From Leucobacter sp. 7(1) (lineage in GTDB: Bacteria > Actinomycetota > Actinomycetes > Actinomycetales > Microbacteriaceae), in NCBI RefSeq assembly GCF_900163635.1, contig NZ_FUID01000066.1:62001-126000 (forward strand): 64,000 bases of DNA, in the 5' to 3' direction. Positions 29,637-37,505 of the stretch are shown here, piece by piece. Position 1 is the stretch's first letter, and each line of letters opens with the position of its first letter. A model generated the notes under the pieces. That model searched no databases and was not told where the DNA came from. It saw only the letters and a program-made list of their open reading frames with translations. Both the position numbers and the translations under genes were made by a program.

Positions 29637-30050
29637 CTACTCTGGGTGCCCGGCGGCCACCATATCGATCACCGGCGCAGTCGCCACGGCGAAGCGCGGG
29701 GCCCTCGGGGGCCGGCGCGCATCGGACTCCCCAGCGAGGGTGCCGTCGGGGGCGATATGGCTAAACATGTGCTCGACAACCGCGAGAATGTGCGGATCTT
29801 CGATCCGGTACAGTTGGCGCCGCCCATCGCGCCGCGACGCAACCATTCCTGCCGCCCGCAGTTTCGCGAGATGCTGGCTTGTGGTGGGCACGGTCGCCCC
29901 CGTGCGTTCCGCAAGCGTCGTAACGTCGTACTCCCCCTCTGAGAGCAGCCACACGATGTGGAGGCGATTCGGCGTCGACAGCATATCGAAGGTGCCCGCG
30001 GCCGCAGCCAGCTGGGCGTCGGTCACCATCGGTTCAGGGGGAAGGTCCAT
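29637..30050 (-). CDS. ArsR/SmtB-family regulator with an alpha-5-type metal site
   Basis: 137 residues, start ATG 30050 with GGAGG about 11 bases upstream. Winged helix ~15-85: AGTFDMLSTPNRLHIVWLL, then recognition helix TVPTTSQHLAKLRAAGMV. No cysteines. Helix 5 reads DPHILAVVEHMFSH: an Asp-x-His pair and a His 11 residues later line up with D84, H86 and H97 of CzrA-type zinc/cobalt sensors; the fourth ligand (H100) is replaced by Pro, with His or Asp nearby. It is divergent from the ABC importer genes, which it probably represses. Confidence 0.82.
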   Translation of the reverse strand: MDLPPEPMVTDAQLAAAAGTFDMLSTPNRLHIVWLLSEGEYDVTTLAERTGATVPTTSQHLAKLRAAGMVASRRDGRRQLYRIEDPHILAVVEHMFSHIAPDGTLAGESDARRPPRAPRFAVATAPVIDMVAAGHPE

Positions 30051-30074
30051 ACCTCTATGATCCTCCGTTCTGTA

Positions 30075-30131
30075 ACTTGCGCAAGTCAATGCATATTCGA
30101 ACTATGCTGGCGGGGGCGCTGCCCCGCCAGC
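30075..30131. promoter_or_regulatory. Palindromes and leader hairpin between ArsR gene and ABC importer
   Basis: Perfect 12-bp palindrome ACTTGCGCAAGT (30075-30086); GCATA-7 nt-TATGC around TTCGAA (30091-30107); and a strong hairpin GCTGGCGGGG/CCCCGCCAGC (30106-30115, 30122-30131, 6-base loop). The palindromes are good candidates for ArsR operators covering both promoters. The hairpin would fold in the importer's 5' leader and has no T-run, so it is more likely a stability or attenuation element than a terminator. Confidence 0.5.
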
Positions 30132-30192
30132 AGCACACCCCTCTGGCCGGGCGTCCGCAGCGCATCCCCGAGCGGAGAAGAGGAACCCCGAC

Positions 30193-31941
30193 GTGACTCC
30201 CCCGCTCTCCGGTCCCCTCAGCGGGGTCGACGGGGTGCTGCGCGTCCGCAAACGTCGCATCGCAGACATCGTGGTGATCCTCGCCGTGGCCGTATCGTTC
30301 TGGCTCCTCATCGAGCTCGGTCAGGGGTTCACGGACCCCTTCGACCCGGAGGTGGCACCCGAGAGCGTATCGACGGATCCCGCGCAGCTCCCGGCCTACG
30401 CTGGGCGCTCGCTCCTGCGCATGTTCCTCGCGCTCGGCGCTTCCACTGTGTGCGCTCTGGTGGTGGCGACCGCGGCTGCGCGGCTCCCCCGGGCCGGCCG
30501 TGTGATTCTCCCCGCTCTGGACGTGCTGCAGTCCGTGCCCGTTCTCGGGTTTCTCTCGGTGACAATTGGGCTGTGGCTCGTACTGTTCCCCGGGACCGCA
30601 CTCGGGCTCGAGCTCGCGGCGATCTTCGCGATCTTCACGAGCCAGGTGTGGAACATGACCTTTGCCTACTACCAGTCGCTCATCACCCAACCGCGGGATC
30701 TGGCCGAGGCTGCCCACACGCTCCGGCTCACCCGGTGGCAACGGTTTTGGGTCCTCGACGCCCCTCACGGTGCCTTCCCGCTCGTGTGGAACGGCATGAT
30801 GAGCTTTGGCGGGGGCTGGTTCTTTCTCATTGCTTCCGAAGTGATCACTGTCAACCACCGCACGTTGGCGCTGCCCGGCATCGGTTCCTACGCTGCTGCT
30901 GCTGCAGAACGGGCAGAACCCGGGCGTCTCCTCCTCGCCGCCAGCGTGATGGTGATGGTGATCCTCGGCGTCAATGTCCTCTTCTGGCGCCCCCTCACCG
31001 CCTGGGCGGAACGCTTCCGCACCGGCGACACCAACACCGCCGCCCCGCAACGCAGCCTGGTCCTGGACCTGCTGCGCCGCTCCGCGGTGCCCCAGCTCCT
31101 CCGGCGCAGCTGGGAACCGCTGGGTGACCTACTCGACCGAGTCACCCGAGGATTCGGACTGTCGGACCGGCCCCACCGAACCAGCCCTCGCCGCCGCCGA
31201 GCCGCGGACATCGCCTTCGGGCTCGTGGTGACCGGCCTCCTCGGTTGGGGTCTTATCGCCATGCTCAGATTCATCACGGCGGAGTCCGGGCTGGAGCAGT
31301 TCGCGGTGGCCGCCGGTCTGGGAGTATTGACCTTCGCCCGCGTTATTGTTCTCCTCATTCTCGGCACGCTCGTGTGGGTGCCCGTCGGCGTGTGGATCGG
31401 CTTGAACCCGCGCGTAACGCGCATTGCGCAGCCCCTCGTGCAAGTACTCGCAAGCTTTCCGGCAAACTTCCTGTTCCCCTTCGCGGCGCTCCTATTGCTC
31501 TCGACAGGGATCAGCCTGGACATCGGTGGAATCCTGCTGATGTCGCTCGGTGCGCAGTGGTACATCCTGTTCAACGTCATCGCGGGTGCCGCTGCGATCC
31601 CCATCGATCTCCGGGACGCAGCCCAGACAATGCGATTGTCGCGCTGGATGACGTGGCGCCAGCTGCTGCTCCCTGCGGTGTTCGGTTCCTGGGTTACCGG
31701 TGCCCTCACCGCCGCGGGAGGCGCGTGGAACGCCTCCATCGTCGCCGAGATCGTGAGTTATGGCGGCACCACGTTGACCGCCCACGGTCTCGGAGCGTAC
31801 ATCGCGGATGCGACACGCCACGGTGAACTCGGGAACGTTCTTGTCGGCGTTCTGGTGATGAGCGTGTGTGTTGTCGTGCTGAACCGGGTGCTGTGGCGGC
31901 GCCTCTACGCGCTGGCCGAGTCACGCTACGCTCTCAACTAG
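30193..31941 (+). CDS. ABC importer permease, two fused permease domains
   Basis: 582 residues, about twelve membrane spans in two BPD-type permease halves. Each half carries an EAA loop that docks to the ATPase: EAAHTLRLTRWQRFWVLDAP near residue 175 and DAAQTMRLSRWMTWRQLLLP near 475. The second half resembles NitT/TauT (nitrate, sulfonate, bicarbonate) permeases. Fusion of two permeases in one chain is typical of a subset with an AAA-associated C-terminal ATPase. Substrate unknown; the neighbouring metal-type ArsR gene hints at a metal or metal complex. Confidence 0.87.
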   Translation: MTPPLSGPLSGVDGVLRVRKRRIADIVVILAVAVSFWLLIELGQGFTDPFDPEVAPESVSTDPAQLPAYAGRSLLRMFLALGASTVCALVVATAAARLPRAGRVILPALDVLQSVPVLGFLSVTIGLWLVLFPGTALGLELAAIFAIFTSQVWNMTFAYYQSLITQPRDLAEAAHTLRLTRWQRFWVLDAPHGAFPLVWNGMMSFGGGWFFLIASEVITVNHRTLALPGIGSYAAAAAERAEPGRLLLAASVMVMVILGVNVLFWRPLTAWAERFRTGDTNTAAPQRSLVLDLLRRSAVPQLLRRSWEPLGDLLDRVTRGFGLSDRPHRTSPRRRRAADIAFGLVVTGLLGWGLIAMLRFITAESGLEQFAVAAGLGVLTFARVIVLLILGTLVWVPVGVWIGLNPRVTRIAQPLVQVLASFPANFLFPFAALLLLSTGISLDIGGILLMSLGAQWYILFNVIAGAAAIPIDLRDAAQTMRLSRWMTWRQLLLPAVFGSWVTGALTAAGGAWNASIVAEIVSYGGTTLTAHGLGAYIADATRHGELGNVLVGVLVMSVCVVVLNRVLWRRLYALAESRYALN

Positions 31942-31961
31942 TTCACCTGCGGAGACCAGAT

Positions 31962-33326
31962 ATGAATCTCACCTCACCAGAATCCGACCCGATCGAGCTG
32001 ATTCGCGCAGACCGGGTATCGCTGTCATTCCCTGCAGCCGACGGGGGTGTGTTTGAGGTGCTCTCCGATGTGAGCCTCACCTTGCGCCCTGGTGAGATCG
32101 TCGCACTGCTGGGTCGATCAGGCTCCGGCAAGTCCACGCTCCTCCGGCTCCTGGCGGGGCTCCTTGACCCTTCGGCCGGGTCCGTGTCCTATCGGGGAAC
32201 CCCGCTTGCTGGCGCAAACCCGGGTACCGCGATGGTGTTCCAGTCCTTCGCGCTCATGCCGTGGCTCACGGTGCTCGACAACGTGGAACTGGGCCTTCGG
32301 GGTGCCGGGATCCCGCGCAAGCTGCGCCGGGAACGGGCGCTGGCGGCGATCGACGCGATCGGCCTTGACGGATTCGAGTCCGCCTACCCTCGCGAGCTCT
32401 CTGGTGGCATGCGGCAGCGTGTCGGATTCGCGCGCGCCTTTGTGCAACAGCCGGACGTGCTGCTCATGGACGAGCCGTTCTCCGCGCTCGACGTACTCAC
32501 GGCCGAGAACCTCCGCGCAGAGCTGATTTCGATGTGGGAGGCCCCAGGCTTCCCGACACGGTCAATTTGCATCGTGACACACAATATCGACGAGGCGGTG
32601 CTGCTCGCCGATCGCGTGCTCGTATTGGGTGGTGCCCCGGCACGCATCACCGCTGAAGTACCGATCCTGGTCCCCCGCCCGCGCGATCGCCGCAGCCCCA
32701 CGTTTGAGGCCGCAGTTGACCATCTCTACGCCCTTCTTACTGGGCAGGACAAAACCACCACCCGCTCGGGAGGCACCCCCGGCCCGCTCACCCATCCGCT
32801 CCCCGCGGCGACTGTCGGCGGGCTAGCGGGGCTCGTCCAGATTGTTGTCTCGCATGACGGGCAAACCGATCTTCCCGATCTCGCGGACGAACTCGCCTTC
32901 GACGTCGACGATCTGTTGCCGCTCGTGGATGCCGCGCAGATGCTGGGGCTCCTCGAGGTTGAAGGTGCGCAGGCCTTCCTCACCGAAATCGGCTGGGCCT
33001 GGCAGTCCGCGGATATTCAGGCAAGCAAGCGGCTCTTCGCCGAGCTTGCCGTGGCGCGCGCCCCACTCGTGGGCACGATCGTGCGGGCGCTGGAGCACAG
33101 CAACGAGGGCGCGCTGCGTGATGATTTCTTCCGCGATGTGCTTCGCCGGGCGTACGGTGCCGACGACGCGCAGAAACAGCTCGATCTCGCCATCGATTGG
33201 GGGCGGTACGGCGAGCTGTTCGACTACGACGCCGACTCCGGAGAGATCGTGCTCACCGAACTTGCCGCGGGCTTCACGGAACTCCTCCGAGGGGACGACA
33301 CTGCTCCGGGCGGGGAGCCGCTGTAG
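31962..33326 (+). CDS. ABC importer ATPase with AAA-associated C-terminal domain
   Basis: 454 residues, ATG 31962 after a GGAGA site. ATPase domain ~10-240: Walker A GRSGSGKSTLL, Q-loop VFQSFALMPW, signature LSGGMRQRVGFARA, Walker B LLMDEPFSALD, switch His in IVTHNIDEAV. The extra ~150-residue C-terminal region (GLAGLVQIVVSHDGQTDLPD onward) matches the AAA-associated C-terminal domain found in NitT/TauT-type importers, thought to be regulatory. Pairs with the fused permease 20 bases upstream. No substrate-binding protein gene is present. Confidence 0.9.
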   Translation: MNLTSPESDPIELIRADRVSLSFPAADGGVFEVLSDVSLTLRPGEIVALLGRSGSGKSTLLRLLAGLLDPSAGSVSYRGTPLAGANPGTAMVFQSFALMPWLTVLDNVELGLRGAGIPRKLRRERALAAIDAIGLDGFESAYPRELSGGMRQRVGFARAFVQQPDVLLMDEPFSALDVLTAENLRAELISMWEAPGFPTRSICIVTHNIDEAVLLADRVLVLGGAPARITAEVPILVPRPRDRRSPTFEAAVDHLYALLTGQDKTTTRSGGTPGPLTHPLPAATVGGLAGLVQIVVSHDGQTDLPDLADELAFDVDDLLPLVDAAQMLGLLEVEGAQAFLTEIGWAWQSADIQASKRLFAELAVARAPLVGTIVRALEHSNEGALRDDFFRDVLRRAYGADDAQKQLDLAIDWGRYGELFDYDADSGEIVLTELAAGFTELLRGDDTAPGGEPL

Positions 33327-33356
33327 CCGTTCCCGCCCGGAACTGCCATCGCGTCG

Positions 33357-34247
33357 CTAACGCAGCTGGCCTGCGCGCTTCACTGTGTAGATCGGAATCA
33401 CAGCGAGGCAGAACACCCCGATGATCTGGACCCATGCGGAGTACGGCCAGCTCAACTCGGGCATCACCTCGAAGTTCTGCCCGTACCAGTTGATGAGGGT
33501 CGACCCCGGGATGAGGATCGCCCACAACACGGTGAAGATCTTGACAACGTTCAGGTCACTCGTCGAGATCTGCTGCGCGGTGCCGCGAGCGTGGAAGCGA
33601 TGCCGTTCCACGAGGAACTCCACGCGCCCCGCAAGGGCATCCCCCTGCTGAATCAGCGCGTCAAGTTCTTCCCGCGGGAGCACGCTCTCACCCTCCGCGG
33701 CCTGCCGCCGGAGAAGCCGGCCCAGCTGCGTGAGGCGGCCCACGGAATACGACACCTGGGAGAGCACCGCGTCGATGTCAGTGAGTACGGAGTTGACGCT
33801 CGGGAGGTCGCTGACGCTGATGCCCCGGGTGTCTCCGGCGTCCTCCGCGAGCACCGCAACGGAGCTGCGGACCCGACGAATGTCAGACTCGATGCGCCCG
33901 AGACTCTCGGCGTTCGCTTGGAAGCCGGCCCGCACGATCGCCAGACCCACGCCTCCCGTGCCGCGATCCTGCGCATCATCCCAGTGCAGCTGCGCCTCCA
34001 CGTCCTGCAGGAGTGGCACCCCGTTCCCGGGTTCGATCGTGATGATCTCGTCGCGCCCCAGGAGGACAGTGGCCTCGCTGACCGTCGCTCCGGCGGGATC
34101 GGGAGTGACGAACCGGACAGGGAAGCGGATTCCCGCTTCCGATCCGTCACTGACGGTGGTGCCCAGTAGTTCTGCTCGCTCGAGCTCCTCGGGGCCCGTC
34201 ACCATCACTCGGGTCCAGCTGCGGTGTGTCAGGGTACGCAAGCTCAT
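33357..34247 (-). CDS. CorA-like channel protein with GQN in place of GMN (paralog 1)
   Basis: 296 residues, ATG 34247 (ATGA with paralog 2). Long charged helical cytoplasmic domain, then two C-terminal spans. CorA pentamers normally carry YGMNF at the pore mouth for hydrated Mg2+ selection; this protein has INWYGQNFEVMPEL near residue 257. The C-terminus is VKRAGQLR, the basic end expected after the second span. Last gene of the M-box-controlled operon; convergent with the ABC ATPase gene. Ion selectivity cannot be predicted. Confidence 0.8.
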   Translation of the reverse strand: MSLRTLTHRSWTRVMVTGPEELERAELLGTTVSDGSEAGIRFPVRFVTPDPAGATVSEATVLLGRDEIITIEPGNGVPLLQDVEAQLHWDDAQDRGTGGVGLAIVRAGFQANAESLGRIESDIRRVRSSVAVLAEDAGDTRGISVSDLPSVNSVLTDIDAVLSQVSYSVGRLTQLGRLLRRQAAEGESVLPREELDALIQQGDALAGRVEFLVERHRFHARGTAQQISTSDLNVVKIFTVLWAILIPGSTLINWYGQNFEVMPELSWPYSAWVQIIGVFCLAVIPIYTVKRAGQLR

Positions 34248-35197
34248 CGCAGCCATCCCTTCCGCTTGATGTAGGCGAGCGGAACGAGCGCAAAGATCGC
34301 GGTCGTCCCCATGACAAACCATTCCCCCCACGGCAGCGCGAGCTCGGGCATGTTGGCGAAGTTCTGCCCGTAGTACGCGGCGATCAGGGTGGGCGGCGTG
34401 AACACCGCGGTGACCACTGTGAACACCTTGATGATCTGGTTCTGCTTGAGATCGAGCGTGGTCATCAGCGACTGCTGTACATTCCGCACCTTTGCGTGCT
34501 GGAACCGCGCGTGACGCCGCCCACCCTGGATATCCGAGAGGAGGGTTGAGTAGTCCTGTTCAGCGTGGCCACTGGATCGACGCACGCGCCGAGCCGCCCG
34601 CTCCAGCATGAGCTGACCCTGCACCGTGCGGGCGATCAGTTCCTCCGCACCACCAAGCGACACCGCCGTCTGCGCAATATCCGCGACGCCAACCTGGCGC
34701 CCCTCCATCTTGAATCCCCCGCTGCTATCGACGGCATCGTCCGCCAGGCGGTTCAGCACGAGGGAGATGCGGTCCACTGTCTGCTGCATCGCGTCGTTCA
34801 GGCCCTCAATGATGATCAAGAGGGCTTCACGGCTCGTCGCGGACTCCGGAAGCCGTGCCACACGCTCCTGCGCCGTCGCGAACGCCTCTACCGGGTGATC
34901 CGGCTCAACAGTGATGAGCAGATCGTCATTCAGTGCGATCAGGATCGGCGCGCCGGTGAAAACGGTCTCGGATGCCGATGCCGGCGCGTCAGGCAGCGGG
35001 AGATCCACGGGCAGCACCGCGAAGTTCTGCTCATAGATCGGATGTCGCACTTCGCGGTTCAGCGACAGGCCGTATTGGCGGTGAATGTTGGCGAGCATCG
35101 CCCGGTCGGAGGCGCGCACTCGGAGCCAGCCGCTGCGGGGCAGATCTGCCGCAGTCAGCTCCTCAGTGTGTACAGTCTGGGATGTCTTCTCAGTCAT
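34244..35197 (-). CDS. CorA-like channel protein with GQN in place of GMN (paralog 2)
   Basis: 317 residues, ATG 35197; the open frame upstream is not family-like. Same layout as paralog 1: N-terminal alpha/beta cytoplasmic domain, long helix with LDLKQNQIIKVFTVVTAVF, then AAYYGQNFANMPEL at the pore-mouth position and the end YIKRKGWLR. The KQNQIIK segment is standard in CorA. Preceded 68 bases upstream by a single-span microprotein gene; coupled to paralog 1 downstream. Confidence 0.83.
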   Translation of the reverse strand: MTEKTSQTVHTEELTAADLPRSGWLRVRASDRAMLANIHRQYGLSLNREVRHPIYEQNFAVLPVDLPLPDAPASASETVFTGAPILIALNDDLLITVEPDHPVEAFATAQERVARLPESATSREALLIIIEGLNDAMQQTVDRISLVLNRLADDAVDSSGGFKMEGRQVGVADIAQTAVSLGGAEELIARTVQGQLMLERAARRVRRSSGHAEQDYSTLLSDIQGGRRHARFQHAKVRNVQQSLMTTLDLKQNQIIKVFTVVTAVFTPPTLIAAYYGQNFANMPELALPWGEWFVMGTTAIFALVPLAYIKRKGWLR

Positions 35198-35265
35198 GTC
35201 GAACGTCTTTTCTTCTGGGGTCGGGGGCTCGTGTGTGGCCCCCGACCAGACATGTGGGGCTCGGG

Positions 35266-35505
35266 TTACCCGAGGGTGAGGCCGTAGAGGTGCAGGCCCG
35301 CGAAGCAGGCAATAATGCCGGCGTACAGCACCACCACTGCCCAAATGATCTCTTTCTCGATCTTGGAGGTCTGCGCGCGGACAGGCTCGTTCTTCGCGAG
35401 CGAGCGCTCGGTGCCGGGCGCATCAGTGCCCAGGTTGTTGAGCTCAAGGCGTGAGCTCCACACATTGGGTGAGGTGCTTGAGGTCTGCAGGTTCTTGGTC
35501 GACAT
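35266..35505 (-). CDS. Single-span membrane microprotein B
   Basis: 79 residues, ATG 35505 chosen for GAAGGA seven bases upstream. The N-terminal ~50 residues are polar and Ser/Thr/Asn-rich. One span follows (WAVVVLYAGIIACFAGLHLY) and the protein ends YGLTLG. The G-L-H...Y-G-L segment also occurs in microprotein A at 36570-36899, so the two are probably paralogs. It sits between CorA-like paralogs 3 and 2 in the same direction, suggesting an accessory or regulatory subunit. No known family recognised. Confidence 0.62.
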   Translation of the reverse strand: MSTKNLQTSSTSPNVWSSRLELNNLGTDAPGTERSLAKNEPVRAQTSKIEKEIIWAVVVLYAGIIACFAGLHLYGLTLG

Positions 35506-35580
35506 GTTCGTGTCCTTCGGGTTGCGGTTCGTCATTCAGGTCGCGCCGCGCGGGCGGCAAGGAGCGGGTGCGCGCGGGCC

Positions 35581-36531
35581 TTAGCGCAGCCATCCGCGAC
35601 GGCGCACGTAGATCAGCGGCAGCATCGCGAACACGAAGCTCAGCACGATGATCATCGGCTCGGCGTAGGTCCAGCTCAGGATCGGCATGAGCTCGAAGTT
35701 CATGCTGTAGTAGGTCGAGAGCAGCATCACCGGGAGGAACACGGCGGTGACCACAGAGAAGACCTTGATGATTTGGTTCTGCTTCACGTTGAGCGCCAGG
35801 TTGTTGGTCTGCTGCAACAACCGGACCCGGTCGTGGACGAAGTCGATATGCGGCTCAATCGCTTCAATGTCCTCGATCAGCCGAGCCAAGTCGGCGCGGT
35901 TGTCCCAGTCGCGCCCGCGCGTCAGCGTCCGCAGGTGACGTGCCGCCTCGGCAAGAACGAGCTGACTCTCCATGCAGTGGGACAGGAGCTCTTCCATGTC
36001 CGTCAGTTCTTGCTGGGTGGTGGTGACGTCGCTCACCCCGAACTCCCGCGCCTTTTTTGTCTCCAAGCTCCGCAAGATGGCGCTCGTCTGCGTCATCATG
36101 CGCTCGCTGCTCATACTGAGGTTCGTGACAAGTTCGTCGGTGGTGTCCGCGATGCTTTCCAGAATGCTTGCGGCGATTTCGATGGGGCTGTCGCCCTCGC
36201 GGCCGTCTCGGTCCATACGGGCGAGTGCCAGATCGATGGGGGCACACCCGGTCAACGGCTCGAGCGTGATCACAACGTCACGGCCGACGGCAATCACGAT
36301 GCTCGTCTCACGGTAGGCGTTTGCGTCACGGTCAACAAAGGTGACGGCGAGGGTGACGAAGGCGCCACCGTCCCGAAACGGGGTGGCCGCCGCCTCGCGC
36401 AGGTCAGCACCCGTGTCCTCTCGGAGGCGCTCAAGCAGCTGGGGGTCGCCGCCGAGGACGCGCTGCCAGCGACCTCCGAGCATGGATTCGACGTGGCCGG
36501 AACGGGCGACGTGCGGTGGGGTCATAGTCAT
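35581..36531 (-). CDS. CorA-like channel protein with SMN in place of GMN (paralog 3)
   Basis: 316 residues, ATG 36531 with GGAAAGAGA upstream. Same cytoplasmic domain and NVKQNQIIKVFSVVTAVF helix as paralog 2. The pore-mouth motif is STYYSMNFELMPIL, so the first Gly of GMN is Ser while Met and Asn remain. It ends YVRRRGWLR. Preceded 38 bases upstream by microprotein A. Of the three it is closest to a normal CorA at the selectivity motif. Confidence 0.83.
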   Translation of the reverse strand: MTMTPPHVARSGHVESMLGGRWQRVLGGDPQLLERLREDTGADLREAAATPFRDGGAFVTLAVTFVDRDANAYRETSIVIAVGRDVVITLEPLTGCAPIDLALARMDRDGREGDSPIEIAASILESIADTTDELVTNLSMSSERMMTQTSAILRSLETKKAREFGVSDVTTTQQELTDMEELLSHCMESQLVLAEAARHLRTLTRGRDWDNRADLARLIEDIEAIEPHIDFVHDRVRLLQQTNNLALNVKQNQIIKVFSVVTAVFLPVMLLSTYYSMNFELMPILSWTYAEPMIIVLSFVFAMLPLIYVRRRGWLR

Positions 36532-36569
36532 TGTGTCTCTTTCCGGTGGGAGTAAACGCGCACGCGCGC

Positions 36570-36899
36570 TCATTCACCGTCCTTGTAGAAGGTGCTGTGT
36601 GTACCCGAGGTCGACGAGGTGCGAGTTTCAAGGCCGTAGTTCGCCACGTGCAACCCCAGCGTCACGCCGAAGGTAATGCAGGCGCTCAAGAGCACCATTC
36701 GCGTCGTGAACTTCTCGTAGCGGGTCGCGCGGCGTCTGGTCCGCTGCGGTGCCGCGGCCGCAAACACTTGGCTGTGCCACGCGCGCTGGGGCGGGTGTGA
36801 CTTCGGGCCGCTCGGGCCGTGTGAGGCGCCGTCGCGGATCTGCACGGGTGGCGTAAAGACTTGCCAGAACAGAATGGGTTCATGGATCGCTGCAGGCAT
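36570..36899 (-). CDS. Single-span membrane microprotein A
   Basis: 109 residues, ATG 36899 with GAGAGGAAG upstream. The N-terminal ~65 residues are polar and basic. One span (MVLLSACITFGVTLGLHVAN) is followed by YGLETRTSS and a short hydrophilic tail. Shares G-L-H...Y-G-L with microprotein B. First gene after the M-box riboswitch and directly upstream of CorA-like paralog 3. Unrecognised family; a small partner protein of the channel is inferred from position only. Confidence 0.62.
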   Translation of the reverse strand: MPAAIHEPILFWQVFTPPVQIRDGASHGPSGPKSHPPQRAWHSQVFAAAAPQRTRRRATRYEKFTTRMVLLSACITFGVTLGLHVANYGLETRTSSTSGTHSTFYKDGE

Positions 36900-36950
36900 G
36901 GCTGAGCTTCCTCTCACGCCTCACTGAGACGATTCGGGGATCGTGGACAT

Positions 36951-37107
36951 GCGCTTCCATGTCAGAGCTTCGGCATTGCGTGACGTAGCCAAATGGCAGC
37001 CACTTGGGGCACCCCCTTAAGCCGAGGGAACCTGTCCTGATCTTGAACATCTCTCGATGCCGTCAGATCAGTGGCCTGTGTTCACGTAAGAGCCTCACCG
37101 AACGAAG
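36951..37107 (-). promoter_or_regulatory. M-box (ykoK) magnesium riboswitch
   Basis: Reading the minus strand, the leader begins CTTCGTTCGGTGAGGCTC, continues TTACGTGAACACAGGCC, and ends AATGCCGAAGCTCTGACATG GAAG. The first segment matches the M-box start (CTTCGTTAGGTGAGGCTC in Bacillus mgtE), and the last matches its conserved close (AGTGCTAAAGCTC...GAAG). The order and spacing (~155 bases) fit. M-box RNAs fold when Mg2+ is high and shut off Mg2+ transport genes. The first gene, microprotein A, starts ~50 bases downstream. Confidence 0.85.
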
Positions 37108-37117
37108 CGCAAGCTCA

Positions 37118-37150
37118 ACAGTACCAATATTCAATCATTTGCGCAAATGA
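37118..37150 (-). promoter_or_regulatory. Promoter of the M-box operon with overlapping palindrome
   Basis: TCATTTGCGCAAATGA (37135-37150) is a perfect 16-bp palindrome. On the minus strand its TTGCGC could be a -35, followed after 17 bases by TACTGT as a weak -10, about 15 bases before the riboswitch. The centre TTGCGCAA also occurs in the ArsR-gene palindrome at 30075-30086. Confidence 0.4.
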
Positions 37151-37198
37151 CGCATGAATAGCGATTCTGTCTCGTCAGCTCCACAGCCCTAAAAATCA

Positions 37199-37231
37199 AA
37201 AAAGCCCGGTCAGATTTCTCTGACCGGGCTT
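37199..37231 (-). terminator. Intrinsic terminator downstream of tRNA-Ala
   Basis: AGCCCGGTCAGA (37203-37214) pairs with TCTGACCGGGCT (37219-37230), loop of four, and a run of T on the minus strand just after the stem. Confidence 0.85.
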
Positions 37232-37235
37232 GCGG

Positions 37236-37308
37236 TGGATCCTGGGAGAATCGAACTCCCGACATCCTGCTTGCAAAGCAGGCACTCTACCAACTGAGTT
37301 AAGGACCC
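37236..37308 (-). tRNA. tRNA-Ala (anticodon TGC)
   Basis: 73 bases with acceptor arms GGGTCCT/AGGATCC, D-loop CAGTTGGTAGA, anticodon loop TTTGCAA giving TGC, and T-loop GTTCGATTC. CCA is not fully encoded. Confidence 0.95.
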
Positions 37309-37471
37309 GTCTGGAACTTCACTTGCGTGAACTTCGCTGGGAACTCGGTATTTCTCCGAAGCAATTCGCACCCTGCGGTGCGTTTCCTTCCCGACTGAAT
37401 AACTATATCCAGGCACCCACACGCACGCAAATCCGGCGTGTCGCGGGTCTCGGAGTAGACCGGGAAAAGCA

Positions 37472-37505
37472 CTGAAGGGCAGTCGATTTCTCGACTGCCC
37501 TTCAG
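37472..37505. terminator. Hairpin between tRNA-Ile and tRNA-Ala
   Basis: CTGAAGGGCAGTCGA pairs over 15 bp with TCGACTGCCCTTCAG, loop TTTC, located downstream of tRNA-Ile on the minus strand. Confidence 0.75.

Follow-up and report, generated by a model that had tools for sequence, protein, structure and literature searches.

Three CorA-like proteins and two microproteins behind an M-box riboswitch in Leucobacter: a recurrent module with a probable role in magnesium uptake

What does a magnesium riboswitch control when the genes behind it are CorA-like, depart from the signature motif of that family, and are interspersed with microproteins? The question arises at a locus of Leucobacter sp. 7(1), analyzed here in a stretch of 64,000 nucleotides (contig NZ_FUID01000066.1, positions 62,001 to 126,000 of the forward strand), hereafter called the window. 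An initial annotation, made from the letters alone, had placed an M-box on the minus strand in front of an operon of CorA-like genes and microproteins and had tied that operon to magnesium shortage. We characterized the leader and the genes behind it, their distribution, their magnesium context, and the readings of their function.

The M-box leader and the genes behind it

Searching the whole window with Rfam cmscan gave a match to the M-box model RF00380 (Table 1) of 126.3 bits (E = 6.2e-28; gathering score, 44 bits), which spans model positions 1 to 169 of 169 and is thus full length. The M-box that the initial annotation had put at 36951 to 37107 is therefore real, its range lying inside the match, and the covariance-model scan it had recommended as a check came out in its favor. 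Both conserved ends that it had pointed to are present; the P1 strands, GCGCTTC (37110-37104) and GAAGCGC (36957-36951), are complementary as read from the sequence; and its strand and distance hold as well, the M-box lying on the same strand as the first gene, micA, 48 nt 5' of the micA ATG. All seven named Leucobacter loci searched carry an M-box 5' of the same genes, at 123.8 to 130.4 bits. The match is not a chance one, since an M-box precedes the same genes in these 7/7 loci and at 10/10 corA1 matches in 54 genomes of the genus.

Table 1. Features of the leader and module in the window, and kinase and regulator regions behind the module in other loci
Feature	Position	Strand	Basis or remark
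Promoter-like pair TTGCGC, 17 nt, TACTGT	37118..37146	-	TTGCGC-17-TANNNT shared among Leucobacter leaders
M-box magnesium riboswitch aptamer, RF00380	36948..37113	-	cmscan, model 1-169
Linker hairpin ACGAT...ATCGT	36929..36944	-	high-Mg fold models
Alpha element (GGCGT and flank)	36916..36928	-	duplex energies versus shuffles
Ribosome binding site GAGAGGA, 9 nt 5' of ATG	36909..36915	-	TGAGAGGA
micA, 109 aa	36570..36899	-	one hydrophobic stretch read as membrane helix; conserved ETRTSSTSGTH after it
corA1, 316 aa, filter SMN	35581..36531	-	PF01544, E 3.3e-39
micB, 89 aa	35266..35535	-	one hydrophobic stretch (EIIWAVVVLYAGIIACFAGLHLYG) read as membrane helix
corA2, 317 aa, filter GQN	34244..35197	-	PF01544, E 1.8e-38
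corA3, 296 aa, filter GQN in NWYGQNF	33357..34247	-	PF01544, E 1.9e-17
Histidine kinase and LuxR-type regulator region	L088:11965-13685		kinase and regulator by Pfam
Histidine kinase regions	L094:11963-13635, L097:14087-15780, L092:14103-15811		kinase by Pfam, regulator by resemblance
Histidine kinase and regulator region	L086:13288-14969		by resemblance

A promoter-like pair lies upstream of the aptamer, separated from it by 4 nt in the window. The pattern TTGCGC-17-TANNNT occurs 3 to 4 nt 5' of the M-box in 8/8 Leucobacter leaders, one pair of which is nearly identical; a scan for the E. coli-type TTGACA/TATAAT consensus did not flag the pair in the window. On the other side, the Leucobacter leaders have 30 to 43 nt between the aptamer and TGAGAGGA, which is invariant in the seven aligned leaders, and then 8 to 9 nt to the ATG of a small open reading frame (ORF). 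The M-box of the window lies about 120 nt after a tRNA; in L. chromiireducens subsp. solipictus, where the site (L077:3119-8253) is remodeled relative to the window, about 4.6 kb separate a tRNA pair from the M-box.

The five genes are listed in Table 1. CorA1, CorA2, and CorA3 score 135.4, 132.9, and 64 bits with PF01544, whose gathering score is 27; the Pfam runs used longer frames of the three corA genes, and micA was run against Pfam and NCBIfam on the longer frame 36570-36917. The NCBIfam corA equivalog TIGR00383 has a cut-off of 200.75 bits, which CorA1, CorA2, and CorA3 do not reach (103, 108.6, and 44.8 bits), but this shortfall does not single out the module, because a GMN-bearing Streptomyces CorA (L072; see below) likewise falls short, at 141.9 bits. 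Neither MicA nor MicB has a Pfam match at E values up to 1 or any NCBIfam match, and the membrane helix of each was read from the hydrophobic stretch in its sequence. corA1 could alternatively start at 36573, where it would overlap micA; corA3, as given, begins within an ATGA that also holds the corA2 stop, and could alternatively start at 34256. By Pfam, a convergent neighbor of the module (window 29637-33326) encodes a permease, an ABC ATPase carrying an AAA_assoc_C domain, and a regulator of the ArsR type; similar frames are seen by resemblance in other Leucobacter loci (L078, L079, L082, and L084).

CorA1 and CorA3 were also modeled with AlphaFold as single chains from 14-row alignments (mean pLDDT, 79.0 and 77.2). 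Both models have the CorA fold with a long stalk helix and two C-terminal membrane helices, and in Foldseek all of the best 50 rows were CorA structures, with T. maritima CorA first (best E, 2.1e-12 for CorA1 and 8.1e-10 for CorA3; query TM, 0.48 to 0.64 and 0.50 to 0.56). Sequence profiles also match CorA structures, across the membrane part.

Recurrence of the module and its fixed motifs

The genomes of 84,980 species were scanned with short peptide patterns of three CorA2 rows. Sixty-one stretches matched, and 21 of them encode a relative, a number that is a lower bound because the scan relies on short peptide patterns. The loci come from seven Leucobacter, Actinotalea caeni, three Alcaligenes, four Comamonas, two Pseudomonas, Bordetella trematum, an Enterobacterales, an Acinetobacter, and a Chloroflexi metagenome-assembled genome (MAG). 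The closest named one is L. chromiireducens subsp. solipictus, with a CorA2 92% identical to that of the window. None of the 21 loci lacks any of the five genes; micA fell below the tblastn cut-off in five proteobacterial loci (L085-L089), where it was recovered by its motif, and tblastn recovered the Chloroflexi micB, which the pattern had failed to detect. The order micA-corA1-micB-corA2-corA3 is kept in 20/21 loci, the exception being the Chloroflexi contig, where the genes are rotated: M-box, a 146-aa ORF with no Pfam match, mgtC, corA2, corA3, micA, corA1, and micB. When the window is counted with the 21 loci, corA2 and corA3 overlap in 22/22, and a 4-nt overlap joins micA to corA1 in 12/22, namely, 11 of the 12 proteobacterial loci and the Chloroflexi MAG; micB and corA2 overlap by 4 nt in 8/21. 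Such overlaps fit coupled synthesis of the products. Judged by gene content and order, the assembly is a recurrent five-gene module and not a local oddity. The microproteins reported downstream of the M-box are likewise borne out: there are two, and their origin by chance or misannotation is ruled out by the conservation of both between phyla.

The module is rare. Ten of the 54 genomes of the genus carry corA1 and corA2, and wider samples hold fewer. In a sample of the phylum, this genome alone among 396 matched at E 1e-40, and in a sample of the order, 4/297 genomes matched at 1e-14, this genome and Actinotalea with three matches and two further genomes with one each. A looser search of the family returned matches in 92/150 genomes, and the best 29 of those loci carry GMN.

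A plasmid-borne origin was considered and rejected: plasmid searches with CorA2 and CorA3 gave only a Serratia remnant and a single Streptomyces pair, and among the best 30 of the 123 records from the CorA1 plasmid search, most of them judged from the list of matches alone, H4 and H9 look by annotation like ordinary corA, and H2 is unannotated. The remnant, on Serratia marcescens IncI1 plasmid pET_W2 (L073:3971-5376), is a shortened corA2, 68% identical to that of the window over 162 columns, beside a corA3-like gene and near a transposase gene; no corA1 was found in the examined stretch of this plasmid. Single pairs of a microprotein and a CorA with intact GMN occur on a plasmid of Streptomyces sp. 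YIM 121038 (L072:7588-8924) and in actinobacterial genome G375 (L071:5398-6890). The small protein of these pairs resembles MicB, and a pair of this kind may be the ancestral unit.

The GMN motif of CorA has been called universally conserved, its Gly carbonyl and Asn side chain lining the pore mouth and holding the ion (PMC3629940, in the part available). GMN is present in 30/30 ordinary CorA loci (the best 29 of the family search and the fourth CorA of this genome) and in none of the three module proteins, whose filter motifs, SMN in CorA1 and GQN in both CorA2 and CorA3, are kept in 22/22 each (21 loci and the window). The gene finder required these motifs, yet it found the three corA genes throughout, and the requirement thus excluded none of the loci. 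The filter Asn is retained throughout; Gly is replaced by Ser in CorA1, and Met is replaced by Gln in CorA2 and CorA3. By motif, GQN is still within the wider GxN class that a review names (PMC9276622, in the part available), to which CorA2 and CorA3 conform, and SMN alone breaks it. The three proteins had been described as degenerate CorA paralogs; CorA they are, by three PF01544 matches, but "degenerate" is not borne out, given a motif fixed for each paralogue. The small proteins are conserved as well: TSST[SA][GA][ST]H follows the hydrophobic stretch of MicA in 22/22 loci, and the hydrophobic stretch of MicB, EIIWAVVVLYAGIIACFAGLHLYG, is conserved in 21 aligned rows.

We computed a tree for 70 proteins, leaving out the rows of L081, L087, L089, L091, and L093 and taking every second canonical locus. 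CorA1, CorA2, and CorA3 each form one side of a branch, with support of 99/100, 99/95, and 100/100; 16 canonical CorA proteins group separately, and the branch leading to the CorA3 group is long (2.97 changes per column). These clades indicate that the three paralogues are old and have traveled together, and since each paralogue has a clade of its own, a recent local duplication of corA is ruled out.

Magnesium context and control at the leader

Thirteen of the 54 genomes of the genus have an M-box. All 10 corA1 matches have one 404 to 490 nt upstream on the same strand (gene-by-gene checks of all five covered the window and the seven named Leucobacter loci), and the other 11 M-boxes of the genus each have an mgtA or mgtC sequence within 1.5 kb (11/11). 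The tie between the CorA-like operon and magnesium drawn in the initial annotation holds on these counts, and the Mg2+ link of the module is well supported. The second M-box of the window's genome (135.4 bits) heads mgtA, whose 911-aa product is a Mg2+-translocating P-type ATPase (TIGR01524, 1127.5 bits); mgtA is followed by an mgtC-like gene (NCBIfam E 3e-43, below the model cut-off).

In the family, 10/150 genomes have an M-box above the cut-off, and the genes near these M-boxes, that of the window aside, are mgtA, mgtC, an MgtE gene (by Pfam in L026 and by resemblance in L027), or an Nramp gene. L029:4821-7820 and L030:4776-7770 each hold an M-box, an Nramp-type gene, and then a gene for an MgtE_N/CBS/PRC protein (by Pfam in L029 and by resemblance in L030), an arrangement reminiscent of the NrmT case (PMC4072509, in the part available). 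The below-cut-off match L031 has no Mg2+-type gene adjoining it.

Beyond Leucobacter, the Chloroflexi MAG combines an M-box, mgtC (Pfam), and all five module genes. In Actinotalea, mgtA lies about 0.4 kb behind the module and is followed by mgtC. Neither the Actinotalea locus nor any of the six proteobacterial loci (of 12) searched for RNA families has an M-box above threshold, so the M-box does not accompany the module everywhere. The proteobacterial modules are repeatedly followed by genes for a histidine kinase and a response regulator of the LuxR type (Table 1). A histidine kinase lies there in Pseudomonas PS910, Bordetella, and CwR94, with a response regulator by Pfam in PS910, and the module of Acinetobacter is followed by a porin gene, mgtC, a histidine kinase gene (Pfam), and a response-regulator-like gene. 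Such a pair may replace the M-box as controller in Proteobacteria. Behind the module of Alcaligenes faecalis (L085:11999-13717), an ORF fuses Cation_ATPase_N and a partial E1-E2_ATPase to a porin domain (Pfam), and an ORF of Bordetella trematum (L092:11936-13702) looks, by resemblance, like the same P-type-ATPase-N/porin fusion.

How the leader would shut the operon off had been left unclear in the initial annotation, which saw no clear terminator between leader and gene. On that point it is sustained: a terminator scan of 33200-37500 found no intrinsic terminator between the M-box leader and micA. The scan gave two terminator-like sites, versus 2.2 in shuffles, and the sole one on the minus strand is the terminator of the upstream tRNA (37231-37202). 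As to a masked start, a masking hairpin is possible, its competing half pairing better than shuffles and its masking half not. An alpha element with a GCGT or GTGT core, just 5' of the ribosome site, can pair with either the 3' strand of P1 or the start region. Pairing of alpha with P1 was as low in energy in 2/1,000 shuffles for seven leaders and in 0/1,000 for nine distinct leaders, counts that are not true probabilities because the controls are letter shuffles of related leaders; the pairing in the window itself is among the weakest (4 bp, -5.4). Pairing of alpha with the start region was not better than shuffles (as low in 233/1,000 and 270/1,000).

Fold models of eight leaders were computed with the P1 strand free or taken (low and high Mg). 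The predicted start codon opens in the expected direction in four (L077, L080, L082, and L084), is nearly flat in L079 and L081, which have identical linkers, and goes the opposite way in two, strongly in L078 and slightly in the window; mean openness is 0.38 at low Mg and 0.33 at high Mg. A linker hairpin forms in 7/8 high-Mg models, being absent in L078, and differs in sequence in most leaders. A simple two-state fold switch, with the expected direction in only 4/8 leaders, was not adopted and is kept as a possibility. A translational switch, in which the aptamer competes with a hairpin that masks the start codon, is plausible; of its two halves, the tests favor the competitor pairing, weakly so in the window leader, whose own folding does not reproduce the switch, and it has a direct precedent in the M-box of M. 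tuberculosis pe20, where a translational platform is coupled to Rho-dependent termination on a small upstream ORF (PMC12810186, in the part available).

Possible functions of the module and known relatives

Our main reading, to which we assign a probability of roughly 0.55, is that the module encodes an M-box-controlled importer of mixed CorA type, induced by Mg2+ starvation and including two single-helix subunits. The M-box would keep the operon off while cytoplasmic Mg2+ suffices and permit expression when it is scarce. CorA1 (SMN), CorA2 (GQN), and CorA3 (GQN) would then assemble as a mixed CorA-like pentamer that scavenges Mg2+. MicA and MicB would be single-helix subunits, with the N terminus inside, as the basic residues before the helix suggest, and the helices packed beside the pore mouth, where the conserved Thr/Ser/His-rich outer segment of MicA would also lie. 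Control would act at translation start, with P1 competing for an element able to cover the start codon, possibly together with Rho.

One complex is the best account of the joint inheritance of three divergent paralogues with position-specific filters, two microproteins, and gene overlaps; the mixing of subunits is suggested by co-conservation. The M-box points to the signal, and the recurrent neighbors point to the pathway. What we observe is the aptamer, its constant position ahead of the module in Leucobacter, five conserved genes with their position-specific motifs, and the magnesium context; a response of this RNA to Mg2+, assembly of the five products into one complex, inward conduction of Mg2+, and control at translation start are inferred. 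Conduction of Mg2+ cannot be taken for granted, as the filter is altered in all three CorA subunits. The broader proposal, of a hetero-oligomeric bacterial CorA channel with a composite Ser/Gln-containing filter and two single-helix subunits that spread between phyla as a unit under the Mg2+ sensor of each host (for Leucobacter and one Chloroflexi, the M-box; for Proteobacteria, probably two-component regulation), strikes us as tentative, falling just short of even odds.

Departure from GMN in all three filters would also suit an accessory or regulatory complex, in which the altered CorA proteins serve as Mg2+ sensors or plugs that govern MgtA, MgtC, or canonical CorA in starvation. The genome retains a canonical GMN CorA and the M-box before mgtA and the mgtC-like gene, and the module has mgtC beside it in Actinotalea, Acinetobacter, and the Chloroflexi MAG, and in Actinotalea mgtA as well. 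We consider this unlikely, as all three paralogues retain the filter Asn, the MPxL segment, and the pattern of the pore helix, no tblastn match to MgtA or MgtC lies in the examined stretch of 14/21 loci, and the targets of M-boxes are almost always Mg2+ transporter genes (PMC4072509, in the part available).

CorA is described as a homopentamer (PMC9276622, in the part available), and the three proteins could accordingly form separate, co-expressed homopentameric channels of differing ion preference, each with or without a small partner. The single microprotein-CorA(GMN) pairs of Streptomyces sp. YIM 121038 and G375 and the Serratia plasmid, with its shortened corA2 and full-length corA3-like gene and no corA1 in the examined stretch, are compatible with such an arrangement. 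Independent channels would not need strict joint inheritance of three divergent paralogues, however, and none of the 21 loci found through CorA2, in a search with strict patterns, lacks any of the three; we hold separate channels to be rather improbable.

CorA proteins also transport Co2+ and Ni2+. A module that is merely wired to Mg2+ status by a real M-box and moves another divalent ion (Mn2+, Co2+, or Ni2+) would fit this breadth and the Nramp genes behind family M-boxes (L029 by Pfam, L030 by resemblance), but it is quite improbable against recurring neighbors that are mgtA and mgtC and M-box-linked Nramp-related proteins that proved to be Mg2+ importers by complementation (PMC4072509, in the part available).

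The mixed importer thus remains our preferred reading, and the module is probably a previously undescribed, multi-part Mg2+ uptake system switched on by magnesium shortage. No paper on a module of three CorA proteins and two microproteins was found in the open-licence PMC literature, a weak negative given that some searches were uninformative. By keeping three altered-filter paralogues and two microproteins over three phyla, the module offers a natural experiment on the function of GMN, and if the reading is true, it would be, as far as we found, the first sign of a multi-subunit CorA in bacteria. For experiments, the M-box is a ready starting point, in that it supplies a likely ion, an inducing condition, and a reporter.

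The M-box itself is of a known kind, and the module is CorA-like yet lacks GMN. Like other members of the M-box (ykoK leader) family RF00380, the RNA has a full aptamer and stands before Mg2+ transport-type genes, as do the other copies in the genus by mgtA and mgtC; it differs in the three-CorA/two-microprotein module downstream, the lack of an intrinsic terminator, and the short linker (30 to 43 nt) before the ribosome site. With CorA/Mrs2 (2-TM-GxN, PF01544), the module proteins share the Pfam match, the predicted fold, the membrane helices, and an Asn-F-xx-MP loop; they differ in being three co-inherited divergent paralogues with SMN, GQN, and GQN in place of GMN (22/22) and in having two constant microprotein neighbors. 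In yeast mitochondria, the CorA-type paralogues Mrs2 and Lpe10 share one mixed channel, a precedent for paralogue mixing, although that channel is mitochondrial and has two subunits and no microproteins. The M. tuberculosis pe20 M-box, reported in 2026, is likewise an actinobacterial M-box before a small conserved ORF, and ours is a further one before a small ORF without an intrinsic terminator; a translational platform with Rho has been shown there and is only proposed here, and the pe20 ORF is mycobacteria specific and precedes pe/ppe genes, whereas micA looks membrane-protein-like and precedes corA (PMC12810186, in the part available). The Nramp-related NrmT transporters belong to an unrelated protein family, and transport was shown for them and is inferred here, but the logic is shared, a riboswitch being the pointer to a Mg2+ importer that was not expected (PMC4072509, in the part available).
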